DNA of 64,000 nt from Rhodospirillales bacterium. GTDB lineage: Bacteria > Pseudomonadota > Alphaproteobacteria > UBA828. The notes beneath the pieces were generated by a model. That model was given only the letters and a program-made list of their open reading frames with translations, did no database searches and was not told where the DNA came from. The DNA lies in the NCBI GenBank assembly GCA_028818855.1, contig JAPPMY010000204.1, positions 42,182-106,181 of the forward strand, given 5' to 3'. Each line of letters opens with the position of its first letter. Position 1 is the stretch's first letter. Shown here in pieces: positions 16,790 through 49,265 of this stretch. Position numbers and translations under genes: made by a program.

Positions 16790-17200
<411 letters not shown>

Positions 17201-28723: not shown

Positions 28724-28727
<4 letters not shown>
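27576..28727 (+). CDS. murG: UDP-GlcNAc:lipid I N-acetylglucosaminyltransferase
   Basis: MurG adds GlcNAc to lipid I at the cytoplasmic face, giving lipid II. The 383-residue protein shows the N-terminal [16 protein letters not shown] loop, [10 protein letters not shown], the [12 protein letters not shown] motif, VTGGSQGAR, and the UDP-binding [24 protein letters not shown] segment with the HQSANGRAL contact loop. The start is a TTG overlapping the ftsW TGA (TTGA), supported by GGAGAAGGA about ten bases upstream. Its stop overlaps murC. Confidence 0.95.
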
Positions 28728-30165
<1,438 letters not shown>

Positions 30166-30169
<4 letters not shown>

Positions 30170-45758: not shown

Positions 45759-48700
45759 ATGACCGAGATGCTGCCGATCTCGTCCCGCATCTGGGACATG
45801 AAGTACCGCCTGAAGGCGGCGGACGGCACGCCTGTCGACGGCACGATCGAGGATACGTGGCGCCGCGTCGCCCGCGCGCTCGCCTCGGCGGAAGCGGAGC
45901 CCGCGCGCTGGGAGCCCGCGTTCTACGATGCCCTCGCAGGTTTCAGGTTCCTCCCCGCCGGCCGCATCCTCGCCGGCGCAGGCGCGGAGCGGCAGGTCAC
46001 GCTCTTCAACTGCTTCGTGATGGGGCGGGTCGCGGACGACATGACCGCGATCTTCGAGAACCTGAAGGAGGCCGCGCTCACCATGCAGCAGGGCGGCGGC
46101 ATCGGCTACGACTTCTCGACGCTCCGGCCCAAGGGCGCGCCGGTGAAGGGCGTCGGCGCCGACGCCTCGGGGCCGCTCCCCTTCATGGACTGCTGGGACG
46201 CGATGTGCCGCACCATCATGAGCGCGGGCTTCAGGCGCGGCGCGATGATGGGCTGCCTGCGTTGCGATCACCCCGACATCGAGGCCTTCATCGAGGCCAA
46301 GCGCGACCCCGGGCGCTTGCGGATGTTCAACCTCTCGGTGCTGGTGACGGACGCGTTCATGCAGGCGGTGAAGGACAACGCGCCGTGGGAGCTTGCCTTC
46401 GAGGGCGTCGTCTACCGCACCGTCCAGGCGCGCGCACTCTGGGAGCGGATCATCCGTTCGACCTACGCCTATGCCGAGCCCGGCGTGATCTTCATCGACC
46501 GCATCAACCGGGCCAACAACCTCGCCTACTGCGAGGAGATCTTCGCGACCAATCCCTGTATCACGGCCGATGGCTGGATCCAGACATCGAAGGGCCCGCG
46601 ACAGGTCAGGGAACTGGTCGGCCGACCCTTCGAAGCCATCGTGAACGGCGCCGTCTCGCGGTCCGACCCGCGCGGCTTTTTCCCGACCGGGCGCCGCCAG
46701 ATTCTCAACCTGTTGACCGAGGAAGGCTATCGCCTGCGCCTCACCCCGAATCACCGGGTATGCCGGGTCACCCGCTTGCTTCGACGCACAATCGAAACAG
46801 AATGGGTCGAGACTCGCCACCTTCGGCCCGGCGACCAGATCCTGATCCACGATCACCGCAGCGCGCCCGGCTGGTCCGGCCCCCATACGGAATGCGAAGG
46901 CTACCTGATCGGTCTCCTGATCGGCGATGGAACCCTGAAGGACGATGCCGCCGTTCTCTCAGCATGGCCGGGTGCCTTGGCGGCAAATGGCGGCTATGAG
47001 CGTCCGGGGGTGCACGCCGTCATGCAGGCCGCCCACGACGCGGCGCGAACGCTGCGCCACCGTGCCGACTTTCGCGGCTGGCACGCGATACCCGGCCGCG
47101 GCGAGTATCGAATGAAGCTCGGCGCGCTCAAGCATCTGGCGAACGGCCTGGGACTGCGGCCCGCTCGCAAGGCGGTCACGACTGCCATGCATCGCACATC
47201 CGCCGCCTTCCATATCGGCTTCCTTCGCGGGCTCTTCGATTCGGATGGCAGCGTGCAGGGCGATCAAGGCAAGGGCGTCAGCGTGCGCCTAGCGCAGAGC
47301 GACGAGCGGCTCCTGGTCGAGGTTCAGCGCATGCTCCTGCGCCTGGGCGTCGCCTCGCGCCTCTACCGAAACCGACGAGCCGAAGGCCGAAGATGCCTCC
47401 CCGACGGTCGCGGTGGATTGCGCGAGTACAGTGTCAGGGCAAACCACGAACTCGTCATCAGTTGCGAGAACATTCTGCGTTTTCATCGATTGATCGGGTT
47501 CCATGACCGCGACAAGGTGCGAAGACTGGAGATTGCATTGGCGGGCTATCGCCGACGGTTGAATCGCGAACGCTTCGCGGTCACCGTGCGCGCCCTGGAG
47601 CCGATGGGTGAAGAGGAAGTCTTCGACGCGGCAATTCCCGGGGTCAACGCCTTCGATGCCAATGGCCTCGTCGTCCACAACTGCGGCGAGCAGCCGCTGC
47701 CGCCTTATGGCGCCTGCCTGCTCGGCTCGATCAACCTGGCGAGCCTGGTGCGCGACCCCTTCGAGCAGGAGGCTGCCCTCGACATGGCGGCGCTGGAGGC
47801 GCTCACCGCCACCGCCGTCAGGATGCTCGACAACGCGATCGACTGCTCGCGCTTCCCCATCGCGGCGCAGCAGGAGGAGGCGCATTCCAAGCGGCGCATC
47901 GGGCTCGGCGTCACCGGGCTCGCCGATGCGCTCATCATGTGCCGTGCGCGCTACGGCGGCGAGGCGGCGAACGGCCTGATCGCCCAGTGGATGGGCGGCC
48001 TGCAGCGGGCGGCCTACATGGCGTCCGCCGAGCTTGCGGCGGAGAAGGGGGCCTTCCCCCTCTACGACGCCGCACGCTATGCCGAGAGCCCGACGATCCA
48101 GGGTCTCGACGACGACGTGCGGGCAGCGATCGCAGGAGCGGGAATCCGCAACGCGCTGCTCACCTCGGTCGCGCCGACGGGCACGATCTCGCTGCTCGCG
48201 GGCAACGTCTCGTCCGGCATCGAGCCGGTGTTCAGCTACTCGTACACGCGCAACGTGCTCATGCCGGACGGCTCGCGTCGGGCGGAAACCGTGGACGACC
48301 ACGCCTTTCTGCTCTTCCGCCGCCTCAAGGGCGATGCGGCGCCGCTGCCCGACTACTTCGTCGATGCCCAGTCGCTCCGTCCTGCCGATCACCTCGCCGT
48401 CCAGGCCCAGGCCCAGGCCTTCGTCGACAGCTCCATCTCCAAGACCATCAACTGCCCGGAGGAGATGGCGTTCGACGACTTCAAGGACGTCTACATGCGG
48501 GCCTACGACCTCGGCTGCAAGGGATGCACCACCTACCGCCCCAACCCGGTGACCGGCGCGGTGTTGGAGGGCGCGTCCGGCTCGGCGACGGGCAGCGCGC
48601 CCGCCACCGGCGCCGGGGGCGTCGCCCCGCCGGCTGCGAGTGCGCCCACGCGCCTCCCTGCTGTGCGGCAGAGCGAGCTTCCGCTGGATCCGCCGCCCGC

Positions 48701-49265
48701 GAAGCCCGCAGATGCCTTCGAGGCGGGCGGCGTGATCCACATGACCCGCCCGCTGGAGAGGCCGGAGGCGCTGCAGGGCAGCACCTACAAGATCCGCTGG
48801 CCGGAGCACGACCATGCCATCTACATCACCATCAACGACATCGTCCGCGACGGCAGGCGCCAGCCCTTCGAGATCTTCATCAACTCAAAGAACACCGAGC
48901 ACTATGCCTGGACGGTGGCGCTCACGCGGATGATCAGCGCCGTGTTCCGCCGGGGCGGCGACGTCTCCTTCATCGTCGACGAGCTGAAGGCCGTCTTCGA
49001 CCCGCGCGGCGGCCAGTGGGTGGGCGGCCACTACGTGCCCTCCATCCTTGCCGCGATCGGCGGCGTGATCGAGCAGCACCTGGTGACCATCGGCGCCCTC
49101 GCGCCGCCGGAGGCCGAGACCGCGCGGCTGGAGCCGCCCACGGTCGAAGGCGGCGGGGTCGAGGCGGGATCGGTGCGGTTCTGCGGGCGCTGCGGGCAGC
49201 CGGGCCTCCTGCATCGCGAGGGCTGCGACATGTGCCCCGCCTGCGGCTACTCCAAGTGCGCTTGA
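45759..49265 (+). CDS. nrdJ: Adenosylcobalamin-dependent ribonucleotide reductase (class II), intein-containing precursor
   Basis: Class II ribonucleotide reductase makes deoxyribonucleotides with an AdoCbl-generated thiyl radical, with or without oxygen. The 1168-residue precursor contains a 375-residue intein (267-641); the spliced enzyme is about 793 residues. Extein features: no ATP cone at the N terminus, VTLFNCFVMG with a redox-active cysteine, FNLSVLVTD, then (after splicing) NPCGEQPLPPYGACLLGSINLA, in which the first Cys is the thiyl-radical site and the second, eleven residues on, the other redox cysteine, APTGTISLLAGNVSSGIEP, and a C-terminal tail with CGRCG...CPACGYSKC. No B12 riboswitch was seen upstream. 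Confidence 0.94.
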   Translation: MTEMLPISSRIWDMKYRLKAADGTPVDGTIEDTWRRVARALASAEAEPARWEPAFYDALAGFRFLPAGRILAGAGAERQVTLFNCFVMGRVADDMTAIFENLKEAALTMQQGGGIGYDFSTLRPKGAPVKGVGADASGPLPFMDCWDAMCRTIMSAGFRRGAMMGCLRCDHPDIEAFIEAKRDPGRLRMFNLSVLVTDAFMQAVKDNAPWELAFEGVVYRTVQARALWERIIRSTYAYAEPGVIFIDRINRANNLAYCEEIFATNPCITADGWIQTSKGPRQVRELVGRPFEAIVNGAVSRSDPRGFFPTGRRQILNLLTEEGYRLRLTPNHRVCRVTRLLRRTIETEWVETRHLRPGDQILIHDHRSAPGWSGPHTECEGYLIGLLIGDGTLKDDAAVLSAWPGALAANGGYERPGVHAVMQAAHDAARTLRHRADFRGWHAIPGRGEYRMKLGALKHLANGLGLRPARKAVTTAMHRTSAAFHIGFLRGLFDSDGSVQGDQGKGVSVRLAQSDERLLVEVQRMLLRLGVASRLYRNRRAEGRRCLPDGRGGLREYSVRANHELVISCENILRFHRLIGFHDRDKVRRLEIALAGYRRRLNRERFAVTVRALEPMGEEEVFDAAIPGVNAFDANGLVVHNCGEQPLPPYGACLLGSINLASLVRDPFEQEAALDMAALEALTATAVRMLDNAIDCSRFPIAAQQEEAHSKRRIGLGVTGLADALIMCRARYGGEAANGLIAQWMGGLQRAAYMASAELAAEKGAFPLYDAARYAESPTIQGLDDDVRAAIAGAGIRNALLTSVAPTGTISLLAGNVSSGIEPVFSYSYTRNVLMPDGSRRAETVDDHAFLLFRRLKGDAAPLPDYFVDAQSLRPADHLAVQAQAQAFVDSSISKTINCPEEMAFDDFKDVYMRAYDLGCKGCTTYRPNPVTGAVLEGASGSATGSAPATGAGGVAPPAASAPTRLPAVRQSELPLDPPPAKPADAFEAGGVIHMTRPLERPEALQGSTYKIRWPEHDHAIYITINDIVRDGRRQPFEIFINSKNTEHYAWTVALTRMISAVFRRGGDVSFIVDELKAVFDPRGGQWVGGHYVPSILAAIGGVIEQHLVTIGALAPPEAETARLEPPTVEGGGVEAGSVRFCGRCGQPGLLHREGCDMCPACGYSKCA
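46557..47681 (+). mobile_element. Intein with LAGLIDADG homing endonuclease inside nrdJ
   Basis: A 375-residue intein inserted in frame between extein NP and CGEQPL. Splicing parts are complete: Cys1 with block A CITADGWIQT (residue 267), block B TPNH (329-332), and the C-terminal VHN (639-641) with Cys as the +1 extein residue. The central part has both LAGLIDADG helices: LIGLLIGDGT (Asp390) and FLRGLFDSDGS (Asp494, Asp496). With both acidic residues kept, the endonuclease may be active. The stretch appears less GC-rich than the extein, suggesting horizontal arrival. It interrupts the catalytic site, so the host needs splicing for function. Confidence 0.95.

Follow-up and report, generated by a model that had tools for sequence, protein, structure and literature searches.

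Introduction

Inteins in ribonucleotide reductase (RNR) genes have long been on record, according to the accessible text of several papers (PMC517821, PMC3653736, PMC2795772). An earlier RNR-gene intein in a pseudomonadote, MCA2543 of Methylococcus capsulatus (Bath), has been reported, its insertion site not being given in the available part of the paper (PMC517821). The accessible text on the intein in the R2 subunit (NrdB) of A. aeolicus likewise describes a LAGLIDADG intein that interrupts an RNR catalytic motif, but this one has 346 residues and lies in the other subunit at another site, between the di-iron ligands Glu228 and His231 (PMC8772380). Here we describe an intein in nrdJ, the gene of a class II (B12-dependent) RNR, in a window of 64,000 nucleotides (the whole stretch of DNA that was analysed; contig JAPPMY010000204.1, positions 42,182 to 106,181, of assembly GCA_028818855.1) from a metagenome-assembled genome of a Rhodospirillales bacterium. 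An earlier note on this window, made from the letters alone, had placed the intein directly before the cysteine that carries the thiyl radical and had suggested that its splicing might regulate the enzyme.

A counterpart is found in a class I enzyme. The bnrdE gene (class Ib) of the Bacillus phage SPBc2 (SPbeta) contains an intein that is homologous to ours, has a nuclease region and stands directly before the cysteine of the NLC motif (SNL|C, the bar marking the junction), which we take to be the corresponding catalytic cysteine. It differs from ours in its class I host, in the residue at −1 (Leu) and in its end, ...TGN|CSE, which is without the penultimate His, and it is ~24% identical to ours over 87% of our intein. 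The bnrdE insert is annotated as a ‘putative intein’ in the phage record (NC_001884).

Results

The nrdJ precursor occupies positions 45759..49265 of the forward strand, on which all parts of the gene given below also lie, as a single open frame of 1168 residues, or 793 residues without the intein. It was identified as a class II NrdJ because TIGR02504 (NrdJ_Z) matched well over its cut-off (550 bits against 400) and the catalytic loop NPCGE aligned to 1xje/1xjk; PF02867, PF00317 and PF12637 also matched. The N-extein (residues 1-266, ending ...ATNP; 45759..46556) was delimited by its alignment to T. maritima NrdJ, which extends as far as Cys322 of that protein, and by the sister-genome match up to residue 267. 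It is followed by an intein of 375 residues (precursor residues 267-641; 46557..47681) and by the C-extein (residues 642-1168, with a TSCPD domain; 47682..49265). In the N- and C-extein alignments, intein Cys267 and extein Cys642 (47682..47684) each fell on T. maritima Cys322, which we take to be the carrier of the thiyl radical. The insert splits NP from CGE directly ahead of the probable radical cysteine, which would also be the +1 splicing nucleophile; both the boundaries, which proved exact to the base, and the double role of this cysteine had been proposed in the earlier note.

The junctions read C...VVHN|C in frame and are the ends of a class 1 intein, which starts with Cys or Ser, ends with His-Asn and is followed by Cys, Ser or Thr. 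The insert was assigned the HINT fold, and PF14528 matched it with 92.7 bits, both LAGLIDADG acidic residues being present. In a search with the intein region, 7997 candidates sharing most words were scored and 4176 matched; the best 120, all with an RNR barrel and a LAGLIDADG domain and 98 to 56% identical, were listed. These proteins (P numbers below) were aligned with that of the genome under study (G000; other G numbers denote compared genomes), giving the 121 rows to which the conservation counts refer. The nearest listed relatives, P0003-P0005, are 98%, 92% and 91% identical.

The splicing residues that were checked are retained in 120-121 of the 121 rows. Cys1, the block A nucleophile (precursor Cys267; 46557..46559), is Cys in 120 and Ser in one (P0113), whereas the Thr and His of block B TPNH (TxxH; 46743..46754), Asp357 of block F (VFDAAIPGVNAFDANG; 47619..47666), the penultimate His374 and terminal Asn375 of block G LVVHN (precursor 640 and 641; 47667..47681) and the +1 Cys642 are present in every row. 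At position 364 of block F, where His is usual, ours has Asn, as do 115 of the 121 rows, the others having His (five) or Lys (one). The predicted catalytic residues of the nuclease are similarly retained: Asp124 of block C (LAGLIDADG motif 1, YLIGLLIGDG; 46902..46931) is invariant, and Asp230 of block E (motif 2, FLRGLFDSDG; 47220..47249) is Asp in 118 rows, with Gly in its place in P0018, P0026 and P0031. This near-invariance bears out the view that the splicing blocks and both LAGLIDADG motifs are intact. The intein and its insertion site are near certain from the comparison of these sequences, and the precursor NrdJ is very likely inactive before splicing because the insert divides the catalytic loop. 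A structure model of the precursor had a pTM of 0.59 and is the basis of no claim.

P0035 and P0040 (1532 and 1534 residues) have a second insert of ~440 residues (CVAPGT...IHN) after the position of P0001 residue 112, and therefore likely carry two inteins per RNR. On an archaeal contig (L016, 2-1081 (+)), a C-terminal intein part ending VVHN|TGSGS was seen; its host protein is different, and it was dropped as an RNR intein of the same type.

Both filled and empty alleles of nrdJ were found in the same genus. A search of 60 genomes included seven others of the genus (G001-G007), and in five of them (G001, G002, G004, G006 and G007) the site is empty at exactly the same point. The translations of the empty genes read CEEIFATNPCGEQPLPPYG, and at the site their DNA and the joined G000 flanks differ in 3 to 6 of 60 bases. 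The comparison with close relatives suggested in the earlier note therefore returned uninterrupted genes that do have a matching site; the pattern named there as contradictory, uninterrupted genes with no site motif, was absent from these five. The nrdJ of G005 is filled and 88% identical to that of G000 over the full length, and its intein (L006; identical to L015, JAJDXK010000149.1) is 91% identical and inserted at the same base position. A nrdJ of this type was not detected in G003, a same-genus genome that is 67% complete.

On a wider scale the occupancy is patchy. Of 385 sampled alphaproteobacterial genomes, 15 have the intein and 150 have the N-extein at E<=1e-80; 14 of these 150 are filled. 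The fifteenth intein, in G046, is outside the 150 because its N-extein is truncated where the contig ends. The 150 include a few incomplete genes, which were scored as unfilled since the intein search had no match there. All eight genera that have the intein and more than one gene-bearing genome (g1, g32, g46, g49, g72, g73, g93 and g180) contain both filled and empty states, and five more genera have a single carrier.

Between G000 and G005, the synonymous distance (dS) is 0.179 for the intein (95% bootstrap 0.129-0.235), 0.321 for the exteins (0.273-0.377) and 0.380 for a second RNR described below (0.331-0.429); the intein value is lower than that of the exteins with a one-sided permutation p of 0.0015. 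In the nuclease part the nonsynonymous distance (dN) is 0.041 and dS is 0.176, which indicates past constraint on the nuclease.

The identities of inteins and exteins to ours do not go together. In P0008-P0031, P0015 excepted, the intein is 63-72% identical to ours and the extein only 47-50%, and P0032-P0034 have exteins of 72-75% with inteins of 62-64%; over the 120 relatives the two identities are uncorrelated (Spearman −0.17, p 0.06). In the intein tree, the inteins of our clade group with the P0008-P0031-type set (47-50% extein identity), with a Shimodaira-Hasegawa-like approximate likelihood ratio (SH-aLRT) support of 99. In approximately unbiased (AU) tests, an intein tree constrained to unite the 21 alpha-type inteins was rejected (p-AU 0.0011), as was an extein tree constrained to unite the intein-defined group (p-AU 4e-7). 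This patchy, tree-crossing spread likely points to a mobile element of a known kind, and the mobility supposed in the earlier note is supported by the occupancy, by the discordant trees and by the constraint on the nuclease.

The same junction recurs outside this genus. A generic model of the intein N-terminus gave 27 matches in 398 Pseudomonadota genomes; 19 lie at an RNR-like NP|C junction, as assigned from their flanks, and the other eight lie elsewhere, none with Pro at −1 and some resembling other Hint domains. NP|C is thus the commonest placement among the generic matches in the sampled Pseudomonadota, and the model undercounts, because the G000 intein itself escapes it. In IMG/VR, a scan with a three-intein alignment gave 27 loci, several of them near-duplicates; the N-junction was readable in 25 and is NP|C in all of these, the two unread loci starting inside the intein. 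Seven of eight sampled IMG/VR proteins have an RNR domain at E<=1e-5, including RNR_Alpha and class II insertion domains, and no such domain was found at this threshold in the eighth, L054.

Matches to the intein were also obtained from 22 of the 50,697 phage records of INPHARED, all at less than 60% identity, and from two of 72,556 plasmid records (24-29% identity), one of which is a NrdE intein. A homologous intein stands at the class I junction NL|C in SPbeta bnrdE, in nrdE2 of a staphylococcal SPbeta-like phage, in NrdE of a Miltoncostaea plasmid and in Proteus phage PM135, and the Bacillus SPbeta-group phages matched at E 2e-19 to 7e-19. The record of phage PM135 (L067) annotates no gene across most of the intein-bearing RNR frame.

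The intein-bearing NrdJ is not the only RNR of its host. Contig C178 of G000 encodes a second class II large subunit, whose site reads NPCSE and is uninterrupted, and the idea that the interrupted NrdJ is the sole RNR was rejected on this ground. The second RNR was found in all eight same-genus genomes examined, and another RNR large-subunit gene was present in each of the 16 intein-bearing genomes searched (15 alphaproteobacterial genomes and G005). In all 16 the barrel match of the other large subunit is without an intein-sized gap, the sites themselves having been read base by base only within the genus. A class I small subunit was over the cut-off in five of the 16, with a weak match in one more, and a class III RNR was found in none of them. 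The cell need not lack deoxynucleoside triphosphates (dNTPs) even though the precursor would be inactive. The nuclease is not expected to invade the second RNR, because the site there differs in G000 from the intein site in 29 of 60 bases. An in-frame TGA interrupts the nrdJ homologue of G036 (C2:574213-575211), and the homologue in G055 (C16:772883-773841) is in pieces, with a TAA; some lineages may therefore be able to do without this RNR.

Besides Cys1, no cysteine of the intein is kept in most relatives: the positions of C69, C113, C280 and C303 hold a Cys in 5, 3, 5 and 4 of the 121 rows, respectively. Residue 293 in the nuclease region, Val in ours, is Cys in 37 rows, including P0036. 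In the N-extein, Cys258 (46530-46532), nine residues ahead of Cys267, is Cys in 100 of the 121 intein-bearing RNRs and is the foremost candidate partner of Cys1 in a disulfide that would act as a redox trap. No cobalamin riboswitch was found near nrdJ at the Rfam gathering threshold in the window.

The sole Rfam match in the window is a bacterial class A RNase P RNA at 16796-17199 (+), with 258 bits. ARAGORN placed a tRNA-Ile(gat) at 29093-29177 (−), within a long open frame of the opposite strand (28724-30169), and this tRNA may be false.

Discussion

We consider it highly probable that the insert is a LAGLIDADG intein, predicted to splice by the class 1 pathway and to spread by homing, and that it is likely neutral to parasitic and not a regulator of its host. 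In this scheme Cys267 would attack the Pro266-Cys267 bond, the N-extein would move onto the thiol of Cys642, Asn641 would cyclise with the help of His640 to release the intein, and an S-to-N shift would yield ...ATNP-CGEQ.... Since Cys642 would be retained at the joined junction, the splicing nucleophile would turn into the catalytic cysteine of the enzyme. The nuclease would cut intein-free nrdJ alleles at the site and repair would copy the intein in, and the protein sequence of the homing site could hardly vary without killing the enzyme. Until splicing, NrdJ would be inactive, with the host meanwhile having its second, uninterrupted class II RNR.

Several observations weigh against this interpretation. 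The insert stays under the cut-offs of PF14890 (35.0 against 35.8), TIGR01445 (18 against 24.5) and TIGR01443 (12.9 against 15.6), and TIGR01445 has no match in G000 at E<=0.001, whereas inteins of the same junction elsewhere do pass. The dS contrast comes from one genome pair only. There is no clear co-conversion tract in the flanks: dS is low in the last 60 N-extein codons against G005 (0.173), but it is similarly low against the empty G007 (0.159) and G001 (0.171). Both trees were ‘quick’ searches on 41 of the 121 rows, the extein tree gave long-branch warnings, and the tested groups were picked after the identities had been seen.

The proline at −1 (Pro266; 46554..46556) is left unexplained by splicing and homing as outlined above; it is Pro in all 121 aligned proteins, as the residue at −2 is Asn in all of them. 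The RIR1 intein of M. thermautotrophicus is a mini-intein without a nuclease; it reportedly has a natural Pro-Cys junction and spliced poorly in E. coli, improving when the Pro was changed to Ala (work ascribed to Evans et al. in 1999). The accessible text of a 2026 paper calls Pro at −1 incompatible with splicing, as it disrupts the first step (PMC13123727); this is the only source addressing −1 Pro that we found in the open-licence literature, where no natural intein with Pro at −1 turned up. Either the family is adapted to this proline, perhaps via its unusual block F, or its splicing is inherently slow. A more elaborate proposal is that the NPCGE site forces splicing after Pro on all inteins in such RNRs, making them a proline-tolerant or deliberately slow family, that block F PGxNAFDANG enables the attack of Cys1 on a Pro-Cys bond at which laboratory inteins stall and that the slow step is a timer, holding back the radical cysteine until it is enclosed in the folded NrdJ barrel; we regard it as unlikely, if worth stating. 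Whichever applies, the invariant proline makes these proteins a natural set of inteins for studying splicing after proline, a dead end for engineers.

The regulatory suggestion of the earlier note would make the intein a host-beneficial switch on dNTP supply, in which the precursor is a stored inactive form released on a cue such as redox state, metal or substrate. The divided catalytic loop, with its very likely inactive precursor, speaks for such a role, and so does the invariant −1 Pro, which is reported in the available text to disrupt the first splicing step and may make splicing slow (PMC13123727). A disulfide between Cys258 and Cys1 could hold the intein back, residue 293 is Cys in some relatives though Val in ours, and precedents exist in the accessible parts of the literature: the A. 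aeolicus R2 intein is able to influence cofactor loading (PMC8772380), and a review lists inteins that depend on redox and other conditions (PMC5874633). Nevertheless, we find the switch improbable, and the suggestion was not upheld. A further RNR large subunit accompanies the interrupted one in all 16 intein-bearing genomes searched, and in G000 it is an intein-free class II enzyme; the intein is absent from five of the seven other same-genus genomes, all five of them sister species, and from about nine in ten of the sampled gene carriers; and the nuclease residues are retained, as expected of a mobile element. A redox switch built into the intein itself is further weakened by the rarity of its cysteines other than Cys1 (3-5 of 121 rows). 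A splicing rate that depends on conditions may nonetheless exist, because of the −1 Pro and extein Cys258.

Still less probable, in our judgement, is that splicing of the insert has become poor and that a dispensable copy of the gene is in decay. The intein models below threshold, the −1 Pro, the Asn in block F and the redundant second RNR would fit decay, but the checked splicing residues are kept in nearly all relatives, the frame is open across 1168 codons and the N-extein is constrained (dN 0.040 against dS 0.287 between G000 and G005). The genome consists of 294 contigs with 6.9% estimated contamination, which could suggest that the insert came from assembly or binning of the metagenome. 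Such an artefact is very unlikely, because independent genomes carry the intein: the same-genus G005 has its 91% identical copy at the same base position, and the insert is carried by the 120 listed proteins of the 4176 matches.

Inteins have thus entered a single radical-cysteine loop in RNRs of class I as well as class II, in cells and in phages. A plausible reason for the repeated invasion is that the residues the enzyme cannot change are those on which a homing nuclease can rely. Within one genus, nrdJ now offers both filled and empty alleles as material for tests of homing.

How new the placement is can be judged from its relatives. The PRK08332 (NF006207) profile, of 1684 positions, aligned in a single stretch running from our intein into the C-extein, and the genes of its members, presumably archaeal, are therefore interrupted by an intein where ours is; the profile is distant from ours, the insert by itself scoring 57.5 bits. 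Several proteins named ‘LAGLIDADG family homing endonuclease’, from Magnetospira sp. QH-2, Telmatospirillum sp. J64-1 and other Alphaproteobacteria, are the same RNR with a full-length homologous intein at the same site; they are 59-60% identical over the searched region (P0056 and P0055) and differ from ours in degree only. We found no paper on this alphaproteobacterial intein in the open-licence literature, and the insertion site is not given in the accessible text of PMC2814812, PMC3653736, PMC2795772, PMC6370689, PMC517821, PMC8966425, PMC7090010 and PMC7765530. The NrdJ-1 split intein, as described in the available text, sits one residue downstream, with native flanks NPC/SEI and Ser at +1, and is used without a nuclease (PMC13123727). 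Identity with this allele was ruled out, ours being in one frame at NP|C with Cys at +1 and NrdJ-1 being split at NPC|S with Ser at +1. The earlier note had allowed for novelty of the exact placement; the 19 of 27 generic-model matches at NP|C and the annotated class I counterpart in SPbeta bnrdE argue otherwise, and the placement is known in kind, because the same or the adjacent site is occupied in phage class II RNRs, in class I RNRs, in PRK08332 and in NrdJ-1. What the alphaproteobacterial metagenome-assembled genome G000 adds is a new allele; the mobile intein to which it belongs is widespread, and the site is of a known kind.
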